DNA of 64,000 nucleotides from Neorhizobium sp. JUb45. Lineage in GTDB: Bacteria > Pseudomonadota > Alphaproteobacteria > Rhizobiales > Rhizobiaceae. Position numbers and translations under genes: made by a program. The stretch lies in contig NZ_SLYW01000003.1 of NCBI RefSeq assembly GCF_004343585.1, positions 124,001 to 188,000 of the forward strand. Direction: 5' to 3'. Of the stretch, positions 42,894 to 62,500 are shown piece after piece. Numbering within the stretch: the stretch's first letter is position 1; each line of letters starts with the position of its first letter. The notes under the pieces were generated by a model. The model was not told the origin of the DNA, did not search any database, and saw nothing but the letters and a program-made list of their open reading frames with translations.

Positions 42894-45170
42894 TCAGAAC
42901 TTGGCGGTCATGCCGATACCGATGGTGCGTCCGCGCGAGACGAGGACCGAATTGATGGAACCGGTCATGTTGGCGCCCTGCTGCTCGAGCCTTTCGCCGA
43001 CCAGATTTTCACCGAACACATAGAATTCCGTCTGATCGATCGTCAGACCGATACGCGCATCGACGACGTGCTGTGCATCCAGCTCGAAATTGTTGCCGGT
43101 ATCGCCGGCGCGCTTGCCAACGTAGCGATAGCCGAGATAACCGGAGAGTTCCGGGTCGCTCGACATCTGCAGGAAATCGGCAGGCCCGCGATAGGCGATG
43201 CCGAGATTGCCCGACCAGCGCGGCACGTTCGGCGTTTCGTTGCCGACGGCAGCCGCCAGTACACCATTTTCCGGAATGCCGGTGATTTCCGAATGCGTGT
43301 AGGTGACCCCACCGACAAGACTGAAGCCGTTGTCGAATTCCTTGCGGGCTTCGAGTTCGAAACCGTAGTTTTCGAGATCGAAATTCTCGATCGGGAAGGT
43401 GGTGGTCATCGGATCATAGCCGAAGATCGCCTCGTCCTTCACGTCGTTGTAGAAACCGGCCAGCGAGACGGTGGTGCCGGCATCCGGGAACTGCGCCTTC
43501 CAGCCAAGCTCATACGCCCAGATGGAGGTGTCATCGTAACCGTCTTCCGGCAGGCCGATGGCGGCGTTACCGGTGAAGCGCGGATAACCGCCCGCCTTGT
43601 TGCCGCGGCTGATGCTGCCATAGACCAGGCTATCTTCCGTCAGCTTGTAGCTGAGCGACATGCGGCCCGACAGCATATCGAAATTGCGCGAGCTGTCCTG
43701 CGCATAACTTGCGACCGTCAATGGCGAGGTACCGGTAAAGAGCGCATCGATGCCCTTGCGCTCGTGGGTGTAGCGCAGGCCACCGCCTATCTCGAATTTT
43801 TCGCCGAGCGGCTGGGCAATATCGAAGAACACGGCAGAGGAAGAGGAGGTCAGGTTGACATCGCGCGTACCGTTGATCGACGCGGACATGCTGGAGGTGC
43901 CGTAGGTGCTTTCGTTGAAGTCGTTATAGGAAAACACTCCGCCGACGACCCACTTGGTATCCGCGCCTTCCAGCGACTGCAGGCGGACTTCCTGGTAGAA
44001 CTGGTTTTCCCGCTGGTCGGTGATGTTGACGTCACCGTCATAGGTATAGGCGGAGACCGGAACCGGCATGCCGTAAGCGCCGAACGTGGCGCTGTTGATG
44101 TAACCGTCCGAATTGTCGGTCCAGTTGTAGATGTCGTAATGGGTGAAGCCGGTCGTCGTCTTCAGCGCAAAGTTTTCGAATTCATGCGACACATTGAGCG
44201 TGGTGTAGGCAAGGCTGCGGCGAAATTCCGGCGTTTCCTGCCAGGCGTTTCCGTCACGCAGCAAATAGGGATAACCCGTCTCGCCGACGTAACGCTCGTA
44301 ACCGAGGCTGAGCTTGACTTCGGTGGCATCGCCGGGCGTCAGCAGGAAAGTACCCTTTACCGCGCCGAGATCGAACCCGCCGATATCTTCCTGACCGGGG
44401 TGGTCGTTGGTGACATAGGCGCCGCGGCTGAGATAACGCATCGAGAAGCGCCCCATCAGCTCCTCGTTGATGGCGCCACCCAGCAGAAATTCACCCTTGC
44501 GATACCCTTCAGTACCGATTTCCGCGGTCACCTGACGGATCGTTTCGTCCGTGGGCGTGACGCTGAATACGTTGATGGCACCGCCGGTGGAATTGCGGCC
44601 GAACAAGGTGCCCTGCGGCCCGCGCAGGACCTCGACCTGGCCGACATCCAGCAGCTGGCCATTGGCCGCAAAGGCTGGCATCGGCACGCCGTCGACGATT
44701 GTCGGCGCCGTGCTGTTGTCGGGCGACAGCATGGTCGACAGCGTGCCGACACCGCGCACGATGGGCTGAACGGTACGGGGATCATCACCATAGTTCGGCA
44801 TCTGCAGGCCGACGGCCTTGTTGGCGAGATCCTGGATCTCGTTCAGCCGCTCTTCCTGGATCTTTTCCTCTCCGACGACGGAAACGCTGACAGGCACGTC
44901 GATCGGATTTTCTCCGTAGCGACGGGCTTCGACGGTGACGACATCGAGCACCGTGGTGCCATCCGAAGACTGTTCCGATGCGGCAACCCGATTGACCTTG
45001 TCTTCCTCTCTCACATCCTGCGCATACACCGCACCGGCAGCCGCCATCGACAGGGAGAAAGCAACACTCGCCATCAGGCGGGTGCGCCGCGAAACCGTTT
45101 CGCAAGCCGCGGATTTCGACAGGGTACGGACCGGGGCAAGGCTCTGCGGGTCATGGTATGCGGACGACAT
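42894..45170 (-). CDS. TonB-dependent siderophore receptor (FyuA-like)
   Basis: A 758-residue outer-membrane receptor. A long N-terminus ends in a signal segment (LMASVAFSLSMAAAGAVYAQ). It is followed by a TonB box (LDVVTVEA), the plug (DVPVSVSVVGEEKIQEE, VLRGPQGTLFGRNSTGGAIN) and a barrel ending GIGMTAKF with terminal Phe. There is no STN domain. The plug wording and the Ybt-like neighbours suggest a FyuA-type receptor for the metallophore made by the megasynthases to the right. The ATG at 45170 follows GGAG with a 6-nt spacer. The MFS importer is 69 bp downstream. Confidence 0.93.
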   Translation of the reverse strand: MSSAYHDPQSLAPVRTLSKSAACETVSRRTRLMASVAFSLSMAAAGAVYAQDVREEDKVNRVAASEQSSDGTTVLDVVTVEARRYGENPIDVPVSVSVVGEEKIQEERLNEIQDLANKAVGLQMPNYGDDPRTVQPIVRGVGTLSTMLSPDNSTAPTIVDGVPMPAFAANGQLLDVGQVEVLRGPQGTLFGRNSTGGAINVFSVTPTDETIRQVTAEIGTEGYRKGEFLLGGAINEELMGRFSMRYLSRGAYVTNDHPGQEDIGGFDLGAVKGTFLLTPGDATEVKLSLGYERYVGETGYPYLLRDGNAWQETPEFRRSLAYTTLNVSHEFENFALKTTTGFTHYDIYNWTDNSDGYINSATFGAYGMPVPVSAYTYDGDVNITDQRENQFYQEVRLQSLEGADTKWVVGGVFSYNDFNESTYGTSSMSASINGTRDVNLTSSSSAVFFDIAQPLGEKFEIGGGLRYTHERKGIDALFTGTSPLTVASYAQDSSRNFDMLSGRMSLSYKLTEDSLVYGSISRGNKAGGYPRFTGNAAIGLPEDGYDDTSIWAYELGWKAQFPDAGTTVSLAGFYNDVKDEAIFGYDPMTTTFPIENFDLENYGFELEARKEFDNGFSLVGGVTYTHSEITGIPENGVLAAAVGNETPNVPRWSGNLGIAYRGPADFLQMSSDPELSGYLGYRYVGKRAGDTGNNFELDAQHVVDARIGLTIDQTEFYVFGENLVGERLEQQGANMTGSINSVLVSRGRTIGIGMTAKF

Positions 45171-46520: not shown

Positions 46521-48320
46521 TCACGCATCCTCTTGGACGCGGCCTATCTGCCAGCATGAAGCCTGACTGCGCAGGTTCCAGAGATGCGCATACAGCCCAT
46601 CGCCGGCCAACAGGTCTTCATGCCGTCCCTGTTCGGCAACGCGGCCATGATCCAGAACGACGATCTGATCGGCATTTCTGATCGTCGACAGGCGATGGGC
46701 GACAACCACAAGCGTCCTGTTTTCCACCAACCGTGCCAAGGCCAGCTGGATCGCTCGCTCGTTGGTGGGATCGACGGCGGCGGTCGCCTCGTCCAGAAGC
46801 ACGATCGGTGCATCCTTCAGCATGGCGCGTGCAATCGAGATCCGTTGTCGCTCGCCGCCGGAAAGCGTGGCACCGGCCTCCCCTACGCGGCTGGAATAGC
46901 CATTCGGCAAAGCCATGATGAAATCATGCGCCTGCGCCTGACGCGCAGCGTTCTCGATTTCCCCAAGGGTAGCACCGGGCTTTCCGGCTGCGATGTTATC
47001 GGCAATCGTACCGGAAAAAAGATATACGTCCTGAAAGACGACAGCGATTTTTTCAGCCAGATTTTCGAAACGCATGTGGCGCAGATCCGCCCCGCCGATC
47101 GTGATACGGCCTTCCTCGACGTCCCAGAACCGCGACAACAGGTTCAGGAGGGTGCTTTTGCCGGAGCCGGACGGCCCGACGATTGCCGTCATCGACCGCT
47201 GCGGCACGGCAAAACTGACATCCCGCAAAACCGGCTTTCCCTGCACATATGAAAATCCGACATTCTCGAACCGGATATCGAAGCCGTCAGGCGTCGCAGG
47301 CACTGCCGGTTCCGCAAGAGGGGCGGCGTCGAAAATGCGATCGATACGGTCGAGCGCGCTTTCGGCAGAACGCGCCGTTTCCATCACGCCAGCGATCGAG
47401 AGGATCGGGAAATACAGGGATGTCATCAGGCCGAGCGCAACAACCACCGAGCCGCTTGAGACACTGCCGCCGAAATGGCGATAACCGACAAATGCCATCA
47501 GCAAGGGCAGGCCGAGCATCACGACCGCCGAAAAGCCGATCATCGGCACGGCGAGTGCGGTGATCATTCGCACCGAAATGGCATGGAAACGATCAAGCGC
47601 GCCGCGAAACCCCGTCCAGCCGTCGGCGACACGGTTGAAGGCGTGGATGACCTTCATTCCCTGCACGAATTCGATCATCCGCGTGGCGGCATCCGCCTGC
47701 ATGGTGCTTCGGCTGGCGGAGAGTGCGGCGAGACGGCGGCTCGACCAGAGAAAGAACGGCCGACCGCAGGCGATGGACACCACGCTCACAAGCGCGGCCG
47801 GCCAATCCGTCACGACGAGCAGACAGAATGCGGCAAGCGGCAGGCCCAGCGCATGGGCAATGCGCGGAAATCCATCGGCAAAAAAGGCCTCAAGCATCTG
47901 GATGTCGGCCGTCACGGCGGTCACGGTCTCACCCTTGTCGCGGCACAGGTGAAAACCCATGGGCAGATGACGAAGACGTTCCAGCATGGAAAGCCGGAGA
48001 TCGCCGCCGAGATGATGGCTGGCAAGCCAGCAGGTCTGCATAGACAGGATGCCGAAACCGACCTGCCCGACAAGCGACAATGTCATCAGCAGGGCGGCCT
48101 GCCAGATCATCCGAGACGAAACGGCAGGCTCTTCTGCCAAGGTCGCCAGCGCCCATAAAACGACGGCAAAGGCTGCACCGAGACAGATGGATTGCAGCAG
48201 GCGAAGGGCAAGGCCGAACAGAAGGCGACCGCGCCATCGCCCGGCAAGGGTCAGCAATCGCCTGACGGCATCGATATCGGAGCGGATGGTAACGTTTGCC
48301 GTCTGGATATCACTGCTCAC
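46521..48320 (-). CDS. ABC transporter, fused TMD-ATPase (YbtQ-like)
   Basis: A 599-residue half transporter with six N-terminal helices and a C-terminal ATPase. Visible motifs are Walker A VGPSGSGKSTLL, signature TLSGGERQR and Walker B IVLLDEATAAVDPTN. The GTG at 48320 overlaps the stop of the upstream partner (GTGA) and follows GGAG, so the pair is translationally coupled. The exporter fold used for siderophore import or processing is the hallmark of YbtP/YbtQ in yersiniabactin systems. The partner and the divergent megasynthase support the same role, but export of the product cannot be excluded. Confidence 0.9.
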   Translation of the reverse strand: MSSDIQTANVTIRSDIDAVRRLLTLAGRWRGRLLFGLALRLLQSICLGAAFAVVLWALATLAEEPAVSSRMIWQAALLMTLSLVGQVGFGILSMQTCWLASHHLGGDLRLSMLERLRHLPMGFHLCRDKGETVTAVTADIQMLEAFFADGFPRIAHALGLPLAAFCLLVVTDWPAALVSVVSIACGRPFFLWSSRRLAALSASRSTMQADAATRMIEFVQGMKVIHAFNRVADGWTGFRGALDRFHAISVRMITALAVPMIGFSAVVMLGLPLLMAFVGYRHFGGSVSSGSVVVALGLMTSLYFPILSIAGVMETARSAESALDRIDRIFDAAPLAEPAVPATPDGFDIRFENVGFSYVQGKPVLRDVSFAVPQRSMTAIVGPSGSGKSTLLNLLSRFWDVEEGRITIGGADLRHMRFENLAEKIAVVFQDVYLFSGTIADNIAAGKPGATLGEIENAARQAQAHDFIMALPNGYSSRVGEAGATLSGGERQRISIARAMLKDAPIVLLDEATAAVDPTNERAIQLALARLVENRTLVVVAHRLSTIRNADQIVVLDHGRVAEQGRHEDLLAGDGLYAHLWNLRSQASCWQIGRVQEDA

Positions 48321-50158
48321 GACGCCTGCTCCATCGCCGCTCGCCCCGACACAGGCCTGACGGCCGTCGTGCGCACAGCCTGCCAATCCTGCCACAATCG
48401 CCCATAAACACCCTGCGGGGACACCAGTGCCTGATGATCACCCCGTTCGACAATTCTACCACCGGACAGGATGAGGATCTGATCGGCGGTCGCGATCGTG
48501 TGAAGCCGGTGAGCGACGACGATCAGGGTTCGCCCCTTTGCTAGGGCGGCAATCGCCTTCTGGATCAGCGCCTCACTGTCGGGATCGCAGAAAGCGGTCG
48601 CCTCATCGAGAACGATGACTGGTGCATCCTTTAGGATGGCGCGGGCGATCGCGATTCTCTGACGCTCCCCACCTGACAGGTTTATGCCGGATGCCCCGAT
48701 GCGCGACTGATACCCTTGCGGCAGGTCCGAAATGAAATCATCGGCCTGCGCAGCGCGCGCGGCGGCCTGTATCTCTTCCTCGCTTGCACCGGGTTTCCCG
48801 AAGCCGATATTGGCGGCAATCGTATCATCGAACAGAAACACATCCTGAAAAACGAAGGATATTTCCCGCATCAACTGTTCGCGGCCGATGTCGCGAATAT
48901 CCACCCCGCCGAACAGGATACGCCCCGAGGCGATATCGCTGAAACGGGCAACGAGCGACGCCGCCGTGCTTTTGCCGGAGCCCGAAGGCCCGACCAGAGC
49001 GGTCACCGTGCCCGTGCGGGCGGTGAAGGAAAGATCATGCAATACGGCACGGCTGTCATATTCGAACGACACATTTTCGAAGCTGATATCGTGGTTTGCA
49101 AGCTGCACCTCCCTGCCCGTATCCGGTTGAGCAGCGGTGCTAAGCACCTCCTCGACAGATCTCGACGCCACGGAAATATGGGCGATGTTCTGGAAAAGAT
49201 TGAAGAGTTTGGTGAGGGGCAGGCTATAGCCCGAGCCGAGGATGACGAAAAAAGCCAAGGTGGCGATATCGATTTCACCGGCCTGCAGCAAAAGCAGGCC
49301 GACCGGCAGGATGATGGTGACATTGGCGAGGACGAGCGCGCTGAAGGCGCCGCCGAGCGGCACATAGGAGCGAGCGATGTCGAGTTCTATATCGACATAG
49401 TCGCGCACGGCGCGGGAAGCGCCGGAGACGCTTTCACTGCTGCTATTGAAGATTTTCACCACCGGCATGCCCGCCACATATTCAAGCACGGCTGCATTCA
49501 TGCGCTGGTTGGCCACCTGAAATGCACCGACCTTGCGGCTGGAACGCACCGTCGCCATCACGATCAGCAGAAAAGCGACCGGCGTCAGCACGATCGATGC
49601 AAACGCCATGCGCCAATCGACGACGAACAGCCAGACCGAAACCACGGCCCATGTGGTCAGCGCGCTGCTGCCTTCCGGAATGCCGTGTGCCGCAACCATT
49701 TCCAGCCGCTCCGGCTCGTCGATCACGAGCGTCTTGGCCTCACCAAGCGTCCGGTCTGAAAACCAGCCGAGCGGCAGCCGCATGAGGTGGGCGGCAATCG
49801 CCAGCCGCAAGTCGTGAATGATGCCGAATGCCGCGATATGCGCCTTCGCCACCGAAGCGGCCTGCAACCCATAACCGCCGAGAATGGCGACAACGGCCAG
49901 CCCGGAGGAGATCAGAAAACCGGAAAATGTCGCTTCTGCCGCAATGACGTCGACGACCAGACGCCAGACCAGCCACAGCGGAACAAGTTCCAGCGCGGCG
50001 GCACAGCAAGCAAGGAAAACAGACACTGCGATGGTGAGCCGCTTTTTGCCGGCATGGAGCCAAAGCAGGCGCAGGCTGGCGAAATAGTCGATTTTGGGTC
50101 CGACGGCCGTGGGACAGTTTTCATGTCCGTTTTTCTTTTCGGCATCGGCATTGCTCAT
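48317..50158 (-). CDS. ABC transporter, fused TMD-ATPase (YbtP-like)
   Basis: A 613-residue partner of the half transporter downstream. Six helices (GKKRLTIAVSVFLACCAAAL ... onward) precede an ATPase with Walker A VGPSGSGKST, signature NLSGGERQRIAIARAIL and Walker B VIVLDEATAFCDPDSE. ATG 50158 (MSNADAEKK) is preferred to the GTG at 50176. It is transcribed away from the PKS/NRPS operon, with 270 bp between starts, and shares an iron box with it. The likely function is inner-membrane transport of the ferric metallophore as a heterodimer. Confidence 0.9.
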   Translation of the reverse strand: MSNADAEKKNGHENCPTAVGPKIDYFASLRLLWLHAGKKRLTIAVSVFLACCAAALELVPLWLVWRLVVDVIAAEATFSGFLISSGLAVVAILGGYGLQAASVAKAHIAAFGIIHDLRLAIAAHLMRLPLGWFSDRTLGEAKTLVIDEPERLEMVAAHGIPEGSSALTTWAVVSVWLFVVDWRMAFASIVLTPVAFLLIVMATVRSSRKVGAFQVANQRMNAAVLEYVAGMPVVKIFNSSSESVSGASRAVRDYVDIELDIARSYVPLGGAFSALVLANVTIILPVGLLLLQAGEIDIATLAFFVILGSGYSLPLTKLFNLFQNIAHISVASRSVEEVLSTAAQPDTGREVQLANHDISFENVSFEYDSRAVLHDLSFTARTGTVTALVGPSGSGKSTAASLVARFSDIASGRILFGGVDIRDIGREQLMREISFVFQDVFLFDDTIAANIGFGKPGASEEEIQAAARAAQADDFISDLPQGYQSRIGASGINLSGGERQRIAIARAILKDAPVIVLDEATAFCDPDSEALIQKAIAALAKGRTLIVVAHRLHTIATADQILILSGGRIVERGDHQALVSPQGVYGRLWQDWQAVRTTAVRPVSGRAAMEQAS

Positions 50159-50312
50159 CTCAGTCACTACGCACACCCGGTTCTACACGGCAACATTCCA
50201 GCCGATCGCATTGCTCGCGAGCGCCCCTGCCCGCGTTCTCCATCTGCATCCTTCTCGCCAGACAATGGGCACGGTGGGCAAGCCGCGCCTGCCGCTAAAC
50301 TCCGCATTCGGC

Positions 50313-50327: not shown

Positions 50328-50418
50328 GCGGAGCGGTCACCAACGGATGGTTCGGTGTCTAAGGGAGAAGACAATGCCGCCATCGCCATGATGGTGCGCA
50401 GACGAGTGCCGTAATGCT

Positions 50419-50423
50419 GGAGG
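50419..50423 (+). promoter_or_regulatory. Ribosome-binding site deciding the megasynthase start
   Basis: GGAGG lies 5 nt before the GTG at 50429. An in-frame ATG at 50414 precedes this site and has no comparable ribosome-binding sequence. The GTG start gives MTAEPIAIIGM, which places the ketosynthase domain at the very N-terminus. Confidence 0.75.
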
Positions 50424-50428
50424 TTGCC

Positions 50429-53400
50429 GTGACTGCTGAACCCATCGCGATCATAGGAATGACCTGCCGCTTTCCCGATGCGCCGGATATCGCCACCTTC
50501 TGGCGCAACCTGACCGGCGACCACGAGGCAGTGCGACCGCTCGAACCTGCCGAGATGGAACGGCAGGGCATAGATCCCTCGCTTCTCGAAAACCCGGACT
50601 ACGTGAATGCCGGTACGGTGGTTGCGGATGCAGACAGGTTCGATCACGCCTTTTTCGGTTATTCGCCACGCGAAGCCGAGCTGATGGACCCGCAGCACCG
50701 ACTGTTTCTGGAGGAATGCCGGAAACTGATGGATATTGCCAACCTGACGCGCAGCGATCTCAAGATCGGTGCGTTTGCCGGTTGCCGCCAGAGCACATAC
50801 CAGTCGCTGCTGCCGCCCATCCGCGCCGAGGAAATCACCCGCACCGACAGTTTTCAGCAGCTGATGGGCAATGACAAGGATTACCTCGTCACCCGCGCCG
50901 CCTACAAACTCAACCTGACCGGCCCGGCCATGACGGTGCAGACAGCTTGCTCCAGTTCGCTTGTTGCCGTGCATCAGGCCATCGAAAGCCTGCTGAGACG
51001 CGAATGCGACGCAGCCCTTGCCGGTGGCGTGGCGATCTCCTTCCCGCAGGGCAGCGGGTATTTTCGCCAGCAGGGCATGATCTTTTCAGAAGACGGTCAT
51101 TGCCGGCCGTTCAGCGCCGAAGGCACCGGCATCGTGGCCGGCAATGGGCTGGGCCTTGTTGCGCTGAAAAGACTGGCGGAGGCGCAACGGGGCGGTGATG
51201 TCGTGCATGCCGTCATCCTCGGCTCGGCCGTCTCCAATGACGGCAGCGCCAAGATCGGTTACACCGCGCCCGGTCGTGCCGGCCAGCAGCGCGCCATCCG
51301 CGAAGCGCTATCCCGCAGCGGCGTTTCGCCGATCGAAATCGGAATGCTGGAGGCGCATGGCACCGGCACTCCCCTTGGTGATCCGGTAGAGATCGACGCA
51401 ATTTCCGAAATCTATCGCGCCGCCGAGGTGAAGCCGCAGACCATTGCGATCGGTTCGGTGAAGGGCAATGTCGGACATCTCGATACCGCCGCCGGCATCG
51501 CGAGCCTGATCAAGACGGTGCTTGCGGTCAAATCCGCGGCCATTCCGACAAGCCTCCACAGCACTCCTCATAATCCGCGTATCGGCTTTCCCAATACGCC
51601 GTTTCAGCCTGCCGAAGAAACGACAGCGTGGCCGGATCGCTTCGAGCGCCGTATCGCCGCCGTCAGTTCCTTCGGTATCGGCGGCACCAATTGCCACATG
51701 ATTGTCGCCGAGCCGGGCGTTTCAGAAGGCGCGACGGACCGATCGGATTGCGAAGACCATATCCTCGTCTGGTCCGCCCACAGCGAAGCAGCGCTTCAGC
51801 ATGGATTGCCGGCACTTGTGCAAACGCTTGACGACAGCGGACTTGCTGCGCAATGCGCGACTGCGGCGCTGCGCCGCCAGCATTATCCTTATCGAGCCGC
51901 CGTCACTGGCCGCACTGCGGAAGAACTGAAGGCCGCAATGTCCGCCATCAAGCCGATGCGCGCATCGGCGGGCGGTCGCGTCGCATGGATGTTCAGCGGT
52001 CAGGGCAGCCAGTTCACGGCGATGGGCAAGCGGTTGCGGGACGAAAACCCGTCCTTCCGGGAGGCTTTCGATACCTGCGTTGCCGGTTTTGCTGCAAACG
52101 GCATCGAAGACCTAGATGACGTGATCAATGATCCGGCAAGGGCCGCCGACCTCGACCGCACGCTCTATACCCAGCCTGCCCTGTTTTCCTGGCATTATGC
52201 CTTCTCACAGATGCTGATCGACTGGGATCTGCGACCCGATCTCGTCTTTGGCCATTCCGTCGGCGAATTTGCCGCCGCCGTCACGGCCGGCATGCTGGCA
52301 CTCCATGATGCCATAAGGCTGGTGGCGATGCGCGCTCGCCTGATGGAAAATGCAACCGAAGCCGGCGCCATGCTGGCTCTCTCGCTCCCGCAAGCGGAGC
52401 TTGAGGCGGTTTTGCAGAACCATCCGGGCATCGGCATTGCCGCCATCAACGGCCCGGATCGTTTCAGCCTCAGTGGCCGTATTGCAGAGATCGACACGCT
52501 GTCGATCGAATTGACGGAACGCAAGGTCGCGCATCGCCGGCTTGGTGTGAACCGGGCGTTTCACTCGGCAACCATGGAAGCGATCGAAATGCCGTTCAAG
52601 GCGGCATGCCCGGTTGCGGATTTCGGCGCGCCCGAATGCGACATGCTTTCTACGCTGACGGCGGACCTGCTAAATCCCGGCTCGCTTGATGCCGATTACT
52701 GGTATCGCCAGCTGCGCGAACCTGTCCGTTTCCTTGATGCCGCCCAGCGTCTTGCCGATCTCGATATCGATCAGGTGATCGAGATCGGCCCGGATGCCAG
52801 TTTCTCCAGGCTGCTGACCGCTTGCGATATCCCCGCGTCGGCGGCAGCGCTCACCGCAAAAAGCGCTGACGATCCGGCATCCGTGATCGCTGCGCTTTAC
52901 CGGCTGGGGCATGAAGCACCGCTCGAAAATCACTACCGTTCGCGCAATTTCGGTCTGGCCAGCCTGCCGCCGGTCAGCCTGATGGGAACGCGCATCTGGC
53001 CGGAGACATTGCCGAAAACAGCCCGGCCGACAGAGAACAAATCGGCTCTGGAAACCCTGTTCGCTCCCCTCAGGGCACCATTCTCAGCGCGCAAAGCCGC
53101 TGTTCAATTCGGTTTCGAACGGCCACTGCCGATCACGGCAAGGCCTTTGGCCGGGACGGATCACCGCGGCTTCCTCGGGCATGGCAAGCTGGCGCTCGCA
53201 TTGGCAGCCGGCGCGGTAGAGGCCGAATATCGTCCGGCCGCCGCCCCGGCATTGCCGACTGCCGCAACGACACCGCTAGCGGACTGGCTGGCGGCGGCGA
53301 CCGCAGCGGGCAACACCATAGCGACAGCATGGCTTTCCGCTGACTGGCGTCAGGCCAGCGACGTCCGTGAGGTTGAGGGCCGCGTATTTCTGTCGGACGG

Positions 53401-56400
53401 CAGACGCTGCGTCGCCTGGCTGGACATGGGTGAGCCGGAAATCGCTGCCGAACAGATGCCGGTGCAGCTGTGGCAGTGGCGCTGGAACGAGGTGGCGCGC
53501 CTTTACCAGCAGAAACTCAGCGCATCCTCCATCGCCACGCGCGAAGAATGGCTGATCGTCGGAGACGGCGCGGTCGCCGATGAAATCGCGGCCATGGGCA
53601 GGTGGATCGGCCATAATGTCCTGCAGAGCGGCCAGCCACTCGACGGAGCGTTCAGCCAGATCATCGATTGCCGCGCGCTTGGCGATGCGACGGAATTCAC
53701 TGTCGGCACAACGGCGGTAACCGCTGCGCTTAACCGCGCCCTCGGTTGGCTGCGTCATGGACTGGCGCATCCTGCGTGCCGCATCACCACGCTTGTCGCC
53801 AATGCCTGCGATCCGCAGACCGGAAATCCGGCCGGCCCGAACTGGGCCACCATGCAGCTTTGGCGCAGCCTTCGCAATGAACACCCGCATCTGCCGATGA
53901 CCTGCGTGGACATTGCCGATGGCAAGGATATCGAAGCGCTGACCGGTCATCTCGATCATCTCCATGATCTTGGCACCACATTGGCATTGCGTGGCGGCAA
54001 ACTTTACGAGCCGGCCATCGAGGCCGCCATCGCGCGCGAAGATCACAGCCCTATCGACTGGGGCAGCCGTCCGGCCACATTGATCGCCGGTTTCGGGGCT
54101 GTCGGGCGGGAACTCGCTTTCTGGCTGGCCAATCAGGGATGCCGGCATCTTGTCATCATCCTGCACCGCGCACCGGATGCCGCGCAGGAAGCCTGCATTG
54201 CTGAACTGAAGGCTCGCGGCACGACTGTCGACATGCTTCATGCCAGCCTGACCGATGCAGCAGATCTGCGCGCCGCCGTCACAAATCTCGGCGTGTCGAT
54301 CGGGCAGGTTTTTCATACCGCCCATGCCGGGGGAAGTGCACTTCTCTCGGAAGAAACGTTGGAACGCTTTGCCACCGGCGTCACCGTGAAAATCGAAGGC
54401 AGCCTTGCTCTCTATCAGGCAGTTTCCGACCAGCCGCTGGCGCTATTTTGCCTGTTCAGCTCAGCCGCCTCGCTGCTGGCCATGCCGGGCGCGGCCTATA
54501 ATGTCGCCAATGCCTGGCAGGATGCCTTTGCCCAGCACCTGCGCGATCAGGGCGTGCCGGCACTCTCGATTGCCTGGGGCCAGTTCGCCATGGACCGCCG
54601 CGCGGAAAAACTGGAACAGCTGGGCAAGACCAGCCTCAAGCCCATCCCGGCGGCAACCGGCTTTGCCATCATGAATGGTCTTCTGAAGGACGGCGTCACC
54701 GGCCTCGTACCGATCTCGGTCGATGCCGTAGCGCTTGCCGCGGCGACCGGCGGCATGCCGGCCACCCGCAGCCTGCTGCGCCCGCTTCTCGATACCCGCA
54801 ATGAAGCCAGGGAAGAGGTGGAATTCGAACTCACGCTCGATGGCCTTTCCGAATCCGAACGGTCGGAAAAAATCGCCGCCTATCTGCGCGCGATCATCGG
54901 CAAGCGGCTGAAATTCGACAGCGATGCTCTCGACATCGACCGACCGCTGACCGAACAAGGCGTCGACTCACTGGTCTTCCTCGAACTCGTTCACATCATC
55001 AACGGCCGCTTCAACCTGTCACTGCCACCGACTGCCGGTTACGAGTATGGCACCATCGCCGCACTCTCCGCGCATATTGCCGGCCTCACGGAAAAAACCA
55101 CCGACGACATCGATTTCTCGCGTCAGTTGGCTAAGGGCAATATCGAGATCATCGACCGGCCGGAGGAACGTTTCGAACCCTTCCCGCTGACCGATCTGCA
55201 GCAGGCCTTCTGGGTCGGCCGCAAGGGCGGCATGCGGCTCGGAGCCGTTTCCTGCCATGAATATCTGGAAATCGAACTCGACGATCTGAACGTCTCAGCC
55301 CTCGAAACCGCGTGGAACCGGCTGATCGCTCGCCACGAAATGATGCGCTGCGTGATCACGCCCGCCGGTCAGCAGCAGATCCTGAAAAAGGCACCGCACT
55401 ACGAGATCACGCAACGCGATCTGACAGTACTTTGCGAACAGGAGCGTGAGGAGACCCTGAACGGGATCCGCGAGCGGATGTCCTATCAGGTGTTCGATCC
55501 GCAGGTCTGGCCGTTGTTCGAACTGACCACCAGCCATCTTCCGGGTGGCGCGACACGCATCCATCTCGACATGGATCTGCTCGTCTTCGACATCCAGAGT
55601 TTTCGCGTCGTGTTTGGCGAACTGGCAACGCTGCTGGCAAACCCGGAAGCTTCACTGCCCGACCTCTCGCTGTCTTTCCGCGACTATGTGCTGGCCGAAG
55701 ATGCCGCGCGTCAGGGACCGGCATGGGACAAGGCCCGCGATTTCTGGCTGGAAAAACTCGAAACATTCCCGCTGGCGCCGGAACTGCCGCTGCGTCGCAA
55801 GCCGGAAGAGGTTGCCCGCCCGACTTTCCGCACGCTTGATCATCGGCTTTCGTCCTCCCACTGGAAGCAATTCCAGGCGAAGGCGTCCGAGTGCGGCCTG
55901 ACCGCCAGTGGTGCGCTTCTGACCGCCTTCAGCCAGGTGCTTGCGACCTATAGCAAGGCGCCGGAATTCACCCTCAACGTCACCTATTTCAACCGCAAGA
56001 ACGTGCATCGGCAGGTGATGGACATTTGCGGCGATTTTACCTCGCTGATGCTTCTGCCGGTCGAGGCACGCGGCCAGGAAAACTTCATCGACGCGGCCAA
56101 GCGCACCCAGAACGACCTCTGGCAGGCATTGGCCCACCGCGAATTCAACGGCATCCGCCTGATGCGAGAACTCGGCCGCCAGCGCAATGGGGGCGCCGAT
56201 GGCATCGACATGCCGGTCGTTTTTACCAGCATGATCGGCATGGACTTTGACGATCCGAACCGCGCCGACTGGCCACTGACCAGTCGTCAGGTGTTTCAGA
56301 TCAACCAGACGCCGCAGGTCTGGCTCGATTATCAGGCAACCGAATATGGCGGTGCGCTGGTCACCCGTTGGTTCATTGCCGACGACCTTTTTGAACCACG

Positions 56401-59400
56401 CATGATCGACGGCATGTTCCGCGCCTACACGGATTTCCTGCAGAAGCTGGCTGTGGATGACACGCTCTGGGGGGCGCTCGTGCCCGACATGCGCCCCGAG
56501 ACGGATCGCCTTCTGGCGGCAAGCACCCAGACGATTGCGGAGCGGCCGCAAGGCGTGTTGATGCCGGATCTGCTGCAGCACTCGGCGAGTGCCATGGCCG
56601 CCAACACCGCCATCTTCAGCCCACAAGGTGATCGCACCTACGCCTCTCTGCGGACGGATGCGAACCGCCTTGCCAACCACCTGATCGCCCTCGGTCTTCA
56701 GCCATCGCAGCCGGTCGCGGTCGTCATGCCCCGCCAGCCGGATGCGGTTCTGTCGGCGCTCGCCATTCAGGCTGCCGGCGGCTGCTATGTACCCGTCAAC
56801 GGCGATTACGAAAACGAGCGGCTGATCGCCATCCTGCAGGATCTTTCGCCCTTTGCCGTGCTGACCCATGGCCCGGCACCTACCCTTCCGGCAGAATTTT
56901 TGCGTATCGATCTGGCCAGTCTTTCGGTCACGGATCTGCCCGATACGACGCCGGAACAGCGCCAGACCGAAAAAGACCTCGCCTATATCATCTACACATC
57001 CGGAACGACCGGCCAGCCCAAGGGCGCCATGCTCGATCACCGCGGCCCGCTCAACACGATCTCCGCGCTGATCCGCCGACTTGGCGTCACCGAACGCGAC
57101 CGCACGCTGTCGCTATCGGCCTTCCACCACGACATGTCGGTGTTCGACATCTACGCGATGATGGCAACCGGAGGCGCGATCGTGCTTCCGGATCAGGACC
57201 GCTCCAAGGATGCCATGCATTGGCTCGATCTCGTTTGCGAGCACCGGCCGACCATCATCAACGCCGTTCCGGCCTTCGTCTCCATGCTGCTCGATGCGCA
57301 GGCGCTGCGCCAGATCGATCTTCCAGCCCCGCGCCATGTGATGATGGGCGGCGACTGGATCCCGCTGGAGCTGGTGCGCCGCCTGAAAGCGTTGTGGCCG
57401 ACATGCGAGATCCACAGCATCGGCGGGCCAACCGAAACCGCCATCGTCTCGGCCTACTACCACCTGAAGCAGATCGATCCGGCCTGGACAAAAATCCCTT
57501 ACGGCCGTCCGCTCGAAAACCAGACATGCCGCATCCTCAACACCGCGGGGCAGGATTGCCCGATCAGTGTGGTCGGCGAAATCTGCACCGGCGGTCTGGC
57601 CATGTCGCTCGGTTATTGGGGCGACGAGGTTCGCACGGCGGAACGCTACCGCATCCACGCGTCCAGCAGCGAAAAACTGTTCCATACCGGCGACCTCGGC
57701 AGGCTGAACCCGGATGGCGAAATCGAGATCGTCGGGCGCATCGACAGCCAGCTGAAGATCAGCGGCATGCGCATCGAGCCGAGCGAGATCGAGGCCGTAC
57801 TGGGCGAACATTCTCACATCGCCGATGCCGCCGTCATCTATGGCGGGTCGCCGCTGAAGCAGTTGCATGGGTACTTCACCCCTTCCAGCGACGCACCGGC
57901 GAACGGTTCGCATAGTGACGGCGACAATGGCTGGCACCGTGCGCTGACGGTGGGAGACTGGGCCTGCAACGACCTGTCGGAGGATTTCAATCTCGACGAC
58001 TACGGCAGCCATTTCGACAATATGGAACAGCTCAGCACCTGGGTGATGCTGGCGACCATGCAGGCGGCGGGACATTTCTGCACTGCCGGTGATACGGCCA
58101 CGACTGGCGATCTCATCGCCTCGCTGAAGGTGATCGAGAAATACAAAAAGCTGTTCGTCAGCTGGCTCGATGTGCTTGAAAGCGATGGCTATCTGCAACG
58201 GAGCGGCGCCACCTATCGCGCCACCGATCGTATTGCCCTTGCCGAACGGCTGCCATCCCTGAAGGCCCGTATCGCCGCCCGCGCCACGCAGGGTGCCGAT
58301 TATGACCGCCGCATCTGGTCGCTTTACGAGCGCTGCATCGCCGAGCCGCAGGCGCTGTTGCAAGGCCGGCTCAATCCGCTGGAACTGATGTTCGAAGGTG
58401 GCCGCACCGATTTCGTCGAAAGCTGGTACCGCGAAAACCCCGTTTCGAAACATTTCAACATCGTCGCTGGCGAAACGGTGCGCGGCCTGTTCGAAGATGC
58501 CGACCCCGACCGCACGATCCGCATTCTCGAATTCGGTGCGGGTATCGGCAGCGTCACGCATGATATCCTCAAGGCCCTGCCGCACGAAAACTTCACCTAC
58601 GCCTTCACCGACCTGTCGCGCTACTTCCTCGACAATGCGCAAAAGATGTTCGCTGACTGGCCGCAGATGCATTTCGGCCTGTTCGACATCAACCAGGATC
58701 CGGCCCTGCAGGGGTTTGACCTCGGTTCCTACGACCTCATCATCGGCGCCAACGTTCTGCACGATGCGGCGGACGTCAATCGCAGCAGCCGGCTGGTGCG
58801 TTCTCTTTTGAAACCATCGGGTCATCTGCTTCTCGTCGAAGGCACCCGCAATCCGCGCTTCCAGCTGGTCAGCCTCGGTTTTGTCGAGGGGCTGAGCCAT
58901 TACGAGGACGAGCGGCTGGAAACCAACCTGCCTATGCTTGATGCAAGCCGCTGGCAGACGGTGCTCGGCGGCGCAGGCTTTGCCCTGCAGGCCGCCTTGC
59001 CGAAACCCGGCAATCCGGTCGAGCGCATGAACTATCACGTAATCCTCGCCCAGAATGCAGCGACAGTGACCGTGATCGACCATGCCGAACTCGATATCTG
59101 GCTGAAGGCAAAGCTACCGGATTACATGGTGCCGCAGCGCTGGCACCAGCTTTCCGCCATGCCGCTGACGCTGAACGGCAAGGTGGATCGCACACGCCTG
59201 CAACAGGCCGTCGAGCTGGAAGTGCAGCCGCCCGAGCAGAGCGAGGATCCGCTGGCCGAAGGTTTGCAGACCCGGCTTGCCGGTCTCTGGCAGGAAATTC
59301 TGGGTCAGCAAATCATCTCGGCATCGGCAAATTTCTTCGTGCTTGGCGGGGATTCACTGCTGATGACGCGGCTTTCGAGCCTGCTGCAGCATCATTTTGG

Positions 59401-59530
59401 CACCGCACCTGATCTCGCCTCTCTGCTGCGCAACCCACTCCTGAAGGATCAGGCCCGTCTGATTGCCGAAATCGCCGGTAAAGAGGGGGCGCTGGAAGAC
59501 GACGAAGCCTTCGAAAGCGGAGTTATCTGA
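50429..59530 (+). CDS. Hybrid PKS/NRPS megasynthase, KS-AT-KR-ACP-Cy-A(MT)-PCP (HMWP1-like)
   Basis: A 3033-residue assembly-line enzyme. Ketosynthase: Cys174 in QTACSSS, then EAHGTGT and KGNVGH. Acyltransferase: Ser610 in GHSVGE, with AFHS near 710 favouring malonyl-CoA. Ketoreductase: AGFGAVG near 1220 and Tyr1357 in YNVAN. ACP: Ser1514 in GVDSL. Cyclisation domain: D1716-x4-D1721-x2-S1724. Adenylation domain: YTSGTTGQPKG near 2188 and NGKVDR near 2915. A methyltransferase is inserted between A8 and A9 (EFGAGIG at 2701). PCP: Ser2976 in GGDSL. The C-terminal tail is acidic (EDDEAFES). The module extends an incoming acyl chain by a reduced malonyl unit and adds a methylated thiazoline or oxazoline. 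Unlike HMWP1 it has no methyltransferase in the PKS module, has its own A domain and lacks a thioesterase. Confidence 0.93.
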   Translation: MTAEPIAIIGMTCRFPDAPDIATFWRNLTGDHEAVRPLEPAEMERQGIDPSLLENPDYVNAGTVVADADRFDHAFFGYSPREAELMDPQHRLFLEECRKLMDIANLTRSDLKIGAFAGCRQSTYQSLLPPIRAEEITRTDSFQQLMGNDKDYLVTRAAYKLNLTGPAMTVQTACSSSLVAVHQAIESLLRRECDAALAGGVAISFPQGSGYFRQQGMIFSEDGHCRPFSAEGTGIVAGNGLGLVALKRLAEAQRGGDVVHAVILGSAVSNDGSAKIGYTAPGRAGQQRAIREALSRSGVSPIEIGMLEAHGTGTPLGDPVEIDAISEIYRAAEVKPQTIAIGSVKGNVGHLDTAAGIASLIKTVLAVKSAAIPTSLHSTPHNPRIGFPNTPFQPAEETTAWPDRFERRIAAVSSFGIGGTNCHMIVAEPGVSEGATDRSDCEDHILVWSAHSEAALQHGLPALVQTLDDSGLAAQCATAALRRQHYPYRAAVTGRTAEELKAAMSAIKPMRASAGGRVAWMFSGQGSQFTAMGKRLRDENPSFREAFDTCVAGFAANGIEDLDDVINDPARAADLDRTLYTQPALFSWHYAFSQMLIDWDLRPDLVFGHSVGEFAAAVTAGMLALHDAIRLVAMRARLMENATEAGAMLALSLPQAELEAVLQNHPGIGIAAINGPDRFSLSGRIAEIDTLSIELTERKVAHRRLGVNRAFHSATMEAIEMPFKAACPVADFGAPECDMLSTLTADLLNPGSLDADYWYRQLREPVRFLDAAQRLADLDIDQVIEIGPDASFSRLLTACDIPASAAALTAKSADDPASVIAALYRLGHEAPLENHYRSRNFGLASLPPVSLMGTRIWPETLPKTARPTENKSALETLFAPLRAPFSARKAAVQFGFERPLPITARPLAGTDHRGFLGHGKLALALAAGAVEAEYRPAAAPALPTAATTPLADWLAAATAAGNTIATAWLSADWRQASDVREVEGRVFLSDGRRCVAWLDMGEPEIAAEQMPVQLWQWRWNEVARLYQQKLSASSIATREEWLIVGDGAVADEIAAMGRWIGHNVLQSGQPLDGAFSQIIDCRALGDATEFTVGTTAVTAALNRALGWLRHGLAHPACRITTLVANACDPQTGNPAGPNWATMQLWRSLRNEHPHLPMTCVDIADGKDIEALTGHLDHLHDLGTTLALRGGKLYEPAIEAAIAREDHSPIDWGSRPATLIAGFGAVGRELAFWLANQGCRHLVIILHRAPDAAQEACIAELKARGTTVDMLHASLTDAADLRAAVTNLGVSIGQVFHTAHAGGSALLSEETLERFATGVTVKIEGSLALYQAVSDQPLALFCLFSSAASLLAMPGAAYNVANAWQDAFAQHLRDQGVPALSIAWGQFAMDRRAEKLEQLGKTSLKPIPAATGFAIMNGLLKDGVTGLVPISVDAVALAAATGGMPATRSLLRPLLDTRNEAREEVEFELTLDGLSESERSEKIAAYLRAIIGKRLKFDSDALDIDRPLTEQGVDSLVFLELVHIINGRFNLSLPPTAGYEYGTIAALSAHIAGLTEKTTDDIDFSRQLAKGNIEIIDRPEERFEPFPLTDLQQAFWVGRKGGMRLGAVSCHEYLEIELDDLNVSALETAWNRLIARHEMMRCVITPAGQQQILKKAPHYEITQRDLTVLCEQEREETLNGIRERMSYQVFDPQVWPLFELTTSHLPGGATRIHLDMDLLVFDIQSFRVVFGELATLLANPEASLPDLSLSFRDYVLAEDAARQGPAWDKARDFWLEKLETFPLAPELPLRRKPEEVARPTFRTLDHRLSSSHWKQFQAKASECGLTASGALLTAFSQVLATYSKAPEFTLNVTYFNRKNVHRQVMDICGDFTSLMLLPVEARGQENFIDAAKRTQNDLWQALAHREFNGIRLMRELGRQRNGGADGIDMPVVFTSMIGMDFDDPNRADWPLTSRQVFQINQTPQVWLDYQATEYGGALVTRWFIADDLFEPRMIDGMFRAYTDFLQKLAVDDTLWGALVPDMRPETDRLLAASTQTIAERPQGVLMPDLLQHSASAMAANTAIFSPQGDRTYASLRTDANRLANHLIALGLQPSQPVAVVMPRQPDAVLSALAIQAAGGCYVPVNGDYENERLIAILQDLSPFAVLTHGPAPTLPAEFLRIDLASLSVTDLPDTTPEQRQTEKDLAYIIYTSGTTGQPKGAMLDHRGPLNTISALIRRLGVTERDRTLSLSAFHHDMSVFDIYAMMATGGAIVLPDQDRSKDAMHWLDLVCEHRPTIINAVPAFVSMLLDAQALRQIDLPAPRHVMMGGDWIPLELVRRLKALWPTCEIHSIGGPTETAIVSAYYHLKQIDPAWTKIPYGRPLENQTCRILNTAGQDCPISVVGEICTGGLAMSLGYWGDEVRTAERYRIHASSSEKLFHTGDLGRLNPDGEIEIVGRIDSQLKISGMRIEPSEIEAVLGEHSHIADAAVIYGGSPLKQLHGYFTPSSDAPANGSHSDGDNGWHRALTVGDWACNDLSEDFNLDDYGSHFDNMEQLSTWVMLATMQAAGHFCTAGDTATTGDLIASLKVIEKYKKLFVSWLDVLESDGYLQRSGATYRATDRIALAERLPSLKARIAARATQGADYDRRIWSLYERCIAEPQALLQGRLNPLELMFEGGRTDFVESWYRENPVSKHFNIVAGETVRGLFEDADPDRTIRILEFGAGIGSVTHDILKALPHENFTYAFTDLSRYFLDNAQKMFADWPQMHFGLFDINQDPALQGFDLGSYDLIIGANVLHDAADVNRSSRLVRSLLKPSGHLLLVEGTRNPRFQLVSLGFVEGLSHYEDERLETNLPMLDASRWQTVLGGAGFALQAALPKPGNPVERMNYHVILAQNAATVTVIDHAELDIWLKAKLPDYMVPQRWHQLSAMPLTLNGKVDRTRLQQAVELEVQPPEQSEDPLAEGLQTRLAGLWQEILGQQIISASANFFVLGGDSLLMTRLSSLLQHHFGTAPDLASLLRNPLLKDQARLIAEIAGKEGALEDDEAFESGVI

Positions 59531-62500
59531 TGGAAGCTGTAGCCCCGATGACGCTCGCCGAATTGCAGCGGCAGATGCAGGAAAACCGCATCCGCCTGTG
59601 GGTGGCGGATGGAGAACTGCGGTATGCCGCCCCGCAGGGCAAGATGACGGCAGCGCTGCGTTCCGCGCTCGGTCATCACAAGACTGTGCTGATCAGCGAG
59701 CTTTCTCGCGAAGCGGCGACAATCACCGCGCAGCCGGACGCCCGCCACCAGCCCTATCCGATGACGGATCTGCAGCAGGCCTATTGGGTCGGCGAGCATG
59801 GCGGTTATGCGCAATCCGCCATCCCCTGCTTCTTCCATCATTGCCGTTTCGAACACATTGAGCCGGACGTTGTTCAGCAGGCATTGTTTCGCCTACAGAC
59901 CCGCCACGAAGTGATGACCGCGCGCTTTCTTGCGAACGGAACGCAGGTCATACCGAAGCCGGGCGATAACCCCTGCCTGTTGGCCGTCGAGGATTTTCGC
60001 GCACTTTCCGCAGACGAGGCCGAAAAGCGTCTCGAAATCCTCTGCGAAACCTATCCCGAAACACTGCCGTCACTGGAACAGGGCCCGCCGCTTGCCGCAA
60101 CGCTGGTGCGGCTGGCCGGCAGCGACCGCCTTCTGATCGCTTTCCGCCTGATCGCCATCGACGGGCCTTCACTCTCGATGATTTTTCGCGATCTGCTGCG
60201 CTACCTGTTCGAGCCAGATGGCGCGCAGGAGACGCCACCGCTTCTCAGCCATCGCGATTATGTGCTGGCGCTCAAGGCGGCATCGGCGCCCGAAAGTGTG
60301 AAATATTGGGATCGTACGCTACCGGCCCTGCCGCCACCGCCGCAACTGCCACTGACCGGTCATTCGCCACGCTGGTCGAGTTTTCGCCGACTGGCCGGAA
60401 AACTGGATGGCGAACGCTGGCAAAAATTGAAGGCGCGTGCCGCCGAACATGGCGTCACCGCAAACGCCGCCATGCTGGCGCTTTACGCTGCAATGCTGCG
60501 TCCGTTTTCGGCTCAACCGGATTTCACCCTGAACGTGCTTGCCAACTACCGGCCGTTCTCGTATCCGCAGATCGGCGAGATGACCGGCAATTGCTCCAAT
60601 ACCTCGCTGATCGACTGCGTTGACGGCGGCAGTTTTGCCGAACAGGCGCGCCGCATTCAGGCATTGATGGCCGAACGGCTGGCCCATGCTTCGGTCAGCG
60701 GCGTCTCCTTGATCCGTCGGTTACAGCTTGCCGCAGACACCGACGCGCCGGCTGCACCCTTCGTGTTCACCAGCGGTATCAGCAGCGGTCGCCCCAGCCT
60801 GCCGGCCGAACACACCAGCCGTTTCGAACTGCTGGGCAGCCATCTGCGCACGCCGCAGGTGTGGATGGACCATCAGGTGATCGAGAACCATGAGGGGCTG
60901 ATCTATTACTGGGATTATGTCGAACAGGTTTTCGCCGATGGCGTGCCGGAAGCAGTGTTTCAGCACTATCAAATGGCGTTGGACAGACTGGTCGAAAACC
61001 CGGCGGCATGGATAGACAGTAATCCTGCCGGCAGCGATACGACGCTTCCCCCTCTCGTCCCCGGCCATGCTCAGGACAGGGCAGAAACGCTGCCTCAGGT
61101 GTTCCTTTCCACAGCCGCCCGCACGCCGGATGCGATCGCCCTGCTTTCGAACGACGAAACGCTGACCTACGACGATTTACGCCTCCGGGCTGAGCGAATT
61201 GCTGCGACCCTCACCAATCGCGTTGCAAAACCTGGCGATATCGTCGCGATTGCCTTGCCGAAAGGTGCCGACCAGATCGCCGCCGTGATCGGCGTCAGTT
61301 TGGCCGGGCTCGTGTGGTTGCCGATCGACAGCCGCATGCCGGCCGAGCGTCGTGATGCCATTCTGCGCCATAGCGGCTGCCGCTGGCTGATTGCCGAAAC
61401 GGCGAATGTACTGCCGGACGGCGTCTGCAATCTGTCGCCGCAGGTTTTTGCTGAACTGCCAAACCCGGCCTTTGCGTCCGCGTTCGCGCGTCCTACCGAT
61501 CGCGCCTACATTATCTACACATCCGGTTCGACCGGCCTGCCCAAGGGCGTGGTTATCACCCATGGCGCGGCGCTTAACACCATCCGCGACATCAACCGGC
61601 GTTTCGACATCACCGCGGATGATCGCATTCTGGCGCTATCGGCGCTCAGCTTCGACCTGTCCGTCTTCGATATCTGGGGCGCGCTGGCCGCAGGCGCCGC
61701 CATCGTCGTGCCGCCCGACAGCGAGTTCCCGGATCCGGCAGCAACCCTTGCCGCCTGCGCCCGCCACGGCGTGACCGTGTGGAATTCGGTACCGGCGCTG
61801 CTCGACATGGCGCTGTCTGCGTCCACCGACGCACCGGTCAGCGCACTAAAAACGCTGCGCACGATCATGCTGAGCGGTGACTGGATTCCGCTGGCGCTTG
61901 CACAAAAGGTTCTGGTCGATTTTCCGGATGCAAAATTGTTCAGCCTCGGCGGCGCCACCGAAGCGTCGATCTGGTCGAATTTTTATCCGGTCACGGCAAT
62001 CGACCCGGCGTGGAAATCGATCCCCTACGGTTTCGGGCTATCCGGCCAGCAATTGCATGTGCTTGACGCCCATGGCCGCACCTGCCCGATCGGCGTAACC
62101 GGCGAGATCCATATCGAAGGGTTTGGGCTGGCCGAAGGTTACCTCAACGACGCCGAAAAGACTGCCGCCAGCTTTGTGGTTCATGAGAGCGGTCGCCGCC
62201 TGTATCGTACTGGCGATCTTGGGCGCATGCTGCCGGATGGCGCGATCGAATTTCTGGGCCGCAAGGATTTTCAGCTCAAAATCGGCGGGCATCGTATCGA
62301 GGCAGGCGATGTGGAAGCCAACCTCACGCGGCATCCGGATATCGATCAGGCTCTGGTCTTTGCAATGCCGACGCCGGGCGGCCATCCGATATTGGTCGCC
62401 TGCTATACCGGCCGGTCGATGCCATCCTCAGAACTGGGTGCGTGGTTGGGCGAGCGTCTGCCGCGATACATGGTGCCGGATCGCATCGTTCATCTGGACA

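Follow-up and report, generated by a model that had tools for sequence, protein, structure and literature searches.

An arginine at the first aspartate of a cyclization-domain motif in Neorhizobium sp. JUb45 looks like half of a charge swap shared across its lineage

The DNA analyzed here, referred to as the window, is a stretch of 64,000 nucleotides from contig NZ_SLYW01000003.1 of Neorhizobium sp. JUb45 (positions 124,001 to 188,000). It contains two neighboring genes in the same orientation that are predicted to encode a multidomain synthetase, P0002, and a single NRPS module, P0001, followed by a gene for a separate thioesterase (Table 1). Upstream of these within the window, Pfam matches point to two ABC-transporter genes adjoining the synthetase, a TonB-dependent receptor, an AraC regulator, and an MFS protein. 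The cluster continues past the window with genes predicted to encode a Lys/Orn-monooxygenase-like protein, a cystathionine gamma-lyase/methionine gamma-lyase-like PLP enzyme, an OsmC protein, a PKS, a Cy-A-nitroreductase, a dock-Cy-A-PCP enzyme, an enzyme with two carrier stretches and Cy-A, an HlyD protein, an isochorismate synthase-like protein, an aryl-AMP ligase, and a small CM_2 protein. The cluster brings together a carrier-Cy-A-PCP enzyme, additional Cy modules, and PKS modules, and it looks like a siderophore line of the yersiniabactin/piscibactin type. The best NCBIfam match of the aryl-AMP ligase is a DHB ligase model, at a score below the cut-off of that model. The small CM_2 protein is probably isochorismate pyruvate-lyase-like, which would make salicylate rather than DHB the candidate starter. 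Elsewhere in the window (18674-27547) is a gene, apparently outside the NRPS cluster, whose 2957-aa product has a BapA prefix-like domain followed in this description by Ig-like repeats.

Table 1. Features of the synthetase region, with positions numbered from the first letter of the window
Feature	Position	Strand	Basis
TonB-dependent receptor	42894..45170	-	Pfam
Two ABC-transporter genes adjoining the synthetase	46521..50176	-	Pfam
P0002, KS-AT-KR-ACP-Cy-A(MT)-PCP, 3038 aa, upstream enzyme	50414..59530	+	translation, Pfam
Canonical Cy of P0002 (R1603, D1721, D1726, S1729)	55166..56485	+	profile extraction
P0001, NRPS module, TubC_N dock-Cy-A-PCP, 1113 aa	59530..62871	+	ORF, translation, Pfam
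Cy domain of P0001 with variant motif	59740..61026	+	Condensation PF00668, profile extraction, AlphaFold model, Foldseek
Glu89 (GAG), helix alpha1, site of conserved Arg (HMWP2-Cy2 R1509)	59794..59796	+	alignment, codon
Arg206 (CGC), first Asp of DxxxxDxxS (HMWP2-Cy2 D1620)	60145..60147	+	alignment, codon
Asp211 (GAC), second Asp of motif, retained	60160..60162	+	codon
Ser214 (TCA), Ser of motif, retained	60169..60171	+	codon
Leu337, at HMWP2-Cy2 T1753	60538..60540	+	alignment columns, codon
Asn339, at gating Phe (HMWP2-Cy2 F1755, PchE F372)	60544..60546	+	equivalence counted from phmmer alignments, codon
Asn354, at floor-loop Asp (HMWP2-Cy2 D1770)	60589..60591	+	alignment, codon
Thr414, dyad Thr (HMWP2-Cy2 T1830), retained	60769..60771	+	columns, codon
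Leu439, at PchE S472 (Ser in HMWP2-Cy2)	60844..60846	+	segment LRTPQVWMDHQ starts at 439; alignment
Thr441, latch Thr (HMWP2-Cy2 T1856, PchE T474), retained	60850..60852	+	alignment
Asp447, catalytic Asp (HMWP2-Cy2 D1862, PchE D480), retained	60868..60870	+	columns, codon
Gln449 (HMWP2-Cy2 Q1864, PchE Q482), retained	60874..60876	+	columns, codon
A domain of P0001, Cys-like specificity residues	61111..62145	+	Pfam, motif segments
PCP attachment Ser1059 (GGNS) of P0001	62704..62706	+	Pfam, translation
Separate thioesterase, 256 aa	62868..63638	+	Pfam

A search of the JUb45 genome for Condensation domains returned five matches, all in the cluster stretch. Four of these five Cy domains are canonical at the alpha1 Arg, the first Asp, the gating Phe, and the Thr/Asp/Gln positions, and P0001 alone deviates. 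With A-domain specificity positions read by the GrsA scheme, the segments of P0001 are near those of three Cys-like modules downstream. All four of these modules have a Cys-like set of residues, which the P0002 A domain (window 56486-59530) does not share. Given these Cys-like residues, the Cys substrate proposed for P0001 in an earlier reading of the sequence alone (the sequence-only reading) is a fair guess.

The Cy domain of P0001 contains the motif R206-LIAI-D211-GP-S214 (local reading FRLIAIDGPS, with F205 to S214 encoded at 60142-60171). It therefore has RxxxxDxxS in place of the strict DxxxxDxxS, and the HHxxxDG of ordinary C domains is likewise absent. The sequence-only reading had noticed this variant and had called for alignment to known Cy domains. 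The translation and codons agree with it, and R206 aligned on the first Asp in all five phmmer alignments examined (EpoB, PchE, HMWP2-Cy2, FmoA3, and HMWP2-Cy1). That reading was also right that P0002 keeps the intact motif (DLLVFDIQS), with numbering that was five residues off, the residues being D1721, D1726, and S1729 rather than D1716, D1721, and S1724. The catalytic Thr-Asp dyad and nearby Gln of Cy domains are present in P0001 (T414, D447, Q449), and Tyr85 and Asn335 are also retained (columns, codons). The gating Phe is replaced by N339 and the floor loop reads GNCSN where GDFT/S is expected; both positions vary in other Cy domains too.

The P0001 domain is of the Cy type, with a fold closer to solved Cy domains than to solved C domains. 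Its AlphaFold model has a pLDDT of 88.0 and a pTM of 0.86. Chains of Cy-domain proteins occupied Foldseek ranks 1-18, ahead of the first ordinary C domain (rank 19); a Cy chain from the NMR model of HMWP2-Cy1 ranked only 34.

According to excerpts of PMC9547227, the first Asp is structural and in solved Cy domains can form a salt bridge with an Arg in helix alpha1, the pair in HMWP2-Cy2 being R1509-D1620. The same excerpts state that in the HMWP2-Cy2 structure the alpha1 Arg is directed away from the first Asp, so that the bridge is absent in some structures. In our phmmer alignments, Glu89 of P0001 falls on the alpha1 Arg of the solved Cy domains. In the predicted model, Glu89 (model residue 19) lies inside a helix spanning residues 10-20 and Arg206 (model residue 136) closes a strand spanning residues 129-136, a placement that agrees with the alpha1-loop geometry of solved Cy domains. 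By analogy with the homologous structures, Glu89 and Arg206 probably are in physical contact. Judged from the aligned sequences, R206 looks less like the mark of a broken enzyme than like the counterpart of Glu89 in a charge swap that runs through the lineage.

We examined this pair of positions in a census of Cy domains that is a non-random sample because its loci came mostly from the best matches of Cy queries. Only domain matches longer than 371 aa with a score above 60 bits were taken. A first set of 117 distinct domains gave 109 of the Cy type after eight with His at the motif were dropped. The enlarged set, which drew in further plasmid and genome loci, comprised 148 domains, from which 22 with His (ordinary C type) were dropped to leave 126. 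The pair test and tree used 125 rows, with one Cy row that has no letter at alpha1 dropped; the same row was dropped from the tree of the first set. The conservation of the first Asp claimed in the sequence-only reading holds in this sample, where it is present in 107 of the 126 domains and replaced by Glu in two more. An Arg at this site, which that reading had said would count against it if common in active Cy domains, occurs in all six orthologs (P0001 included) and in 0 of the 120 other domains. In the first set (n = 109), the alpha1/first-Asp pairs were RD 93, ER 6, QA 4, RE 2, and one each of SG, ED, AS, and gap-D. In the enlarged set (n = 126), they were RD 104, ER 6, QA 5, RE 2, QS 2, and one each of ED, HD, SG, gap-D, AS, SN, and FS.

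The two positions vary together. Arg at alpha1 was absent from 17 of 17 rows with a non-acidic residue at the first Asp and from two of 108 acidic rows (106 of the 108 having Arg), giving a Fisher p of 4e-19 that is uncorrected for kinship. In the first set, the pair ranked first of 4950 low-entropy column pairs by normalized mutual information and 33rd of 93096 by MIp, and the two columns were mutual best partners. Parsimony on a quick tree of the 125 rows gave seven changes at the first Asp and eight at alpha1. A tree-aware pairs test on these rows found four supported pairs, of which on average 3.9 pointed the same way (p 0.125, non-significant); the smaller first set gave three and three changes and two pairs (p 0.5). 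Among the sampled Cy domains, the Glu/Arg form was seen in one clade only. A same-charge pair that breaks the rule is found in the Cy of L091/L105, with Glu at alpha1, Asp at the motif, and Asn for the dyad Thr. A PKS-NRPS on a Serratia symbiotica plasmid (L102:19774-25803) contains a degenerate Cy domain with Phe at alpha1, Ser at the first Asp, and His at the catalytic Asp.

A scan of the genome contigs of close relatives gave nine loci, of which four were taken as orthologs and the other five were at 31-39% identity. The four are from Neorhizobium huautlense (L009) and a Rhizobiales isolate (L010) (82%), Shinella yambaruensis (L012; 69%), and Azospirillum agricola (L011; 59%). A Shinella plasmid contains a further ortholog (L071; 74% over the Cy domain), and a second Shinella plasmid record that matches at the same 74% was kept outside the counts, so that the six orthologs are P0001 itself and those at these five loci. 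Searches of 397 genomes from the same order, 297 from the same family, and 385 from the same class (partly overlapping sets that include JUb45) gave no further ortholog, the best non-self matches being at 34% identity or less. Identity of the Cy domain among the six is 0.64-0.97, and E89 and R206 are invariant. Against the four genome-locus orthologs, dN/dS of the P0001 Cy domain is 0.09-0.24, similar to that of the canonical Cy domain of P0002 (0.08-0.24). A variant common to six orthologs under purifying selection is neither an error nor a sign of decay. We rejected sequencing error because the R206 motif is common to all six. Several conserved residues are altered in the P0001 Cy domain, as they would be in an inactive domain that is decaying, but the dN/dS values in the four comparisons, the open frame, and the retained catalytic residues make a dead domain extremely improbable, and we rejected it on the dN/dS.

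The sequence-only reading had proposed that loss of the first Asp may leave a domain that only condenses. Its recognition of a Cy-type domain and of the Asp as conserved stands, but it missed the partner in helix alpha1, and the loss of the Asp is by itself insufficient for that conclusion. Excerpts of PMC9396620 report only a twofold drop in one product when the first Asp of PxbG Cy4 was changed to Ala. In seven of seven pairs of VibF-type tandem Cy domains in our sample (L028, L030, L047, L050-L053), both domains keep the first Asp and the alpha1 Arg. The first Cy domain of each pair has a Phe gate, a Glu floor, and the Gln, and the second has no gate stretch, an Asn floor, and Arg at the Gln position. 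In VibF, Cy2 condenses and Cy1 cyclizes (PMC5577590, excerpt), and the same division is predicted for BasD (PMC12005286, excerpt). We infer that the sampled tandems divide labor in this way. Since both partners keep the Asp in all seven, we rejected the first Asp as a marker of condensation-only domains. With Glu89 as a partner and the VibF-type second Cy domains keeping Asp and Arg, R206 alone is no evidence of lost cyclization. Division of labor as in VibF, also suggested in the sequence-only reading, does not apply to P0001, which has a single Condensation match (Pfam), and the tandem partners keep the Asp.

Other replacements bear on ring closure. In all six orthologs the gating Phe is Asn339, the floor-loop Asp is Asn354, and the tunnel Ser (equivalent to PchE S472) is Leu439. 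Excerpts of PMC9547227 report that mutating the gating Phe severely reduced cyclodehydration. In PchE, F372A retains 31.6% activity and S472A leaves 50.3% ring product, and N368A, Q482A, Y114A, and T474A leave 28.0, 9.8, 4.6, and 15.3%, respectively; Q482A and T474A also tripled the linear product, and with D480A hardly any peptide was formed (PMC8807600, excerpts). The counterparts of Q482, T474, and D480 are retained in P0001 (Gln449, Thr441, Asp447), which speaks for ring closure. With its gate, floor, and tunnel residues lost, P0001 may nevertheless only condense, for reasons other than the first Asp. Under that explanation, the domain forms the amide to Cys and leaves a linear terminal Cys, the gate and floor being rebuilt and the change at the first Asp incidental. 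The three replacements in 6/6 orthologs agree with it, as does the VibF-type second Cy, which likewise has no gate stretch and an Asn floor and which in VibF condenses. In the 126 Cy-type domains, a non-aromatic gate accompanies both Asn in the floor loop (23/26 rows versus 12/100 others) and a non-acidic residue at the first Asp (14/17 versus 21/109). However, P0001 retains Gln449, unlike the tandem second Cy. The gate is Phe in 81 and the floor Asp in 79 of the 126, and 35 have no aromatic gate, including one in a cluster that by its gene content looks pyochelin-like (L100). On the tree, three or four supported pairs stood behind each of the two associations, of the gate and of the floor (median p between 0.5 and 1), too few independent changes for gate and floor to serve as a firm marker of ring closure; we keep them as a lead. 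We regard condensation without ring closure by this route as a credible though less probable explanation. Taking all routes together, closure of the ring by the P0001 domain is about an even prospect, and failure to close it is a serious possibility, somewhat short of even.

Genes for the monooxygenase, the PLP enzyme, and the OsmC protein follow the module in six of six clusters (outside the window at L006:4653-8282 in JUb45, and in L009-L012 and L071); most other loci were too short to judge whether this cassette is absent from them. The PLP protein is 83-97% identical to those of the relatives, and in each cluster it is better conserved than the other two. Among solved structures its closest relatives are methionine gamma-lyases and cystathionine gamma-lyases, and it contains an SGTKY segment, presumably the PLP-lysine motif. 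The monooxygenase had no solved relative at E 0.001. A different outcome would be that the Cy domain stops at an S-acyl-cysteine thioester, which the PLP enzyme splits as a C-S lyase to a thiocarboxylate that the monooxygenase and OsmC protein process. The constancy of the cassette and the conservation of its PLP protein are in line with such a release. So is the proposal, in excerpts of PMC9396620, that inefficient Cy domains, the last one stalling at the thioester, leave thioester intermediates from which cysteine beta-lyase-like cleavage could give thiocarboxylates. Yet the PLP enzyme may have another role, such as making a precursor or supplying sulfur, and a thioesterase is also present; we consider this release unlikely. 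It is similarly doubtful that these domains form a separate Cy subtype, so far in Rhizobiaceae-like bacteria and Azospirillum, in which an inverted salt bridge and a rebuilt gate and floor accompany stalling at acyl-cysteine and transfer to a lyase. If true, this would provide the sort of C-S cleaving release enzyme that has been proposed for siderophores ending in a thiocarboxylate.

The best explanation in our view, which we hold at about even confidence, is a charge-swapped Cy domain that condenses with Cys and then closes the thiazoline. The P0001 domain would probably belong to the final module of an aryl-primed PKS-NRPS line resembling that of yersiniabactin, a position that, like the Cys substrate and the ring closure, we infer. 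In this module, the salt bridge between the DxxxxD loop and helix alpha1 would be rebuilt with its charges exchanged, Glu89-Arg206 standing for Arg-Asp, and we propose that the architecture of the active site is retained as a result. Most likely, the domain links the chain received from upstream to the Cys carried by its own PCP, and the thiazoline would then be closed by the intact set of Thr414, Thr441, Asp447, and Gln449. Closure is possibly slow because the gating Phe, floor-loop Asp, and tunnel Ser are replaced.

The clade would offer a natural charge-swap experiment on a contact that solved structures show in differing states, and checks of the first Asp alone can mislabel such Cy domains. 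The gate and floor positions are leads for predicting ring closure. By title or the start of the abstract, none of the matches listed was a publication on this cluster or its cassette, or on an Arg variant or charge swap at this motif, which does not prove that there are none.

P0001 resembles the Cy domains of HMWP2-Cy2, PchE, and EpoB in its fold, the second Asp and Ser of the motif, Tyr85, Asn335, Thr441, the catalytic Asp, and the Gln. It differs from them in having Arg for the first Asp, Glu for the alpha1 Arg, Asn for both the gate Phe and floor Asp, and Leu at the site of PchE S472. Like the VibF-type second Cy, it has no gating Phe and has Asn in the floor loop, but it keeps the Gln, its gate stretch is undeleted, and it is a single Cy domain, whereas in the tandems the second Cy has the Arg/Asp pair intact. 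By its published description, PxbG Cy4 from the photoxenobactin/piscibactin line is also a late, Cys-incorporating Cy domain of a yersiniabactin-like PKS-NRPS line for which incomplete cyclization has been proposed (PMC9396620, excerpts); unlike P0001, it keeps the first Asp. The Cy domains of the Gln/Ala type in Martelella mediterranea (L106) and in four genomes from the family of JUb45 (L045, L046, L048, L049) share with P0001 the replacement of both bridge positions, a non-aromatic gate, and an Asn floor. Their pair is neutral in contrast to the charge swap of P0001, and the annotated gene surroundings in Martelella differ.
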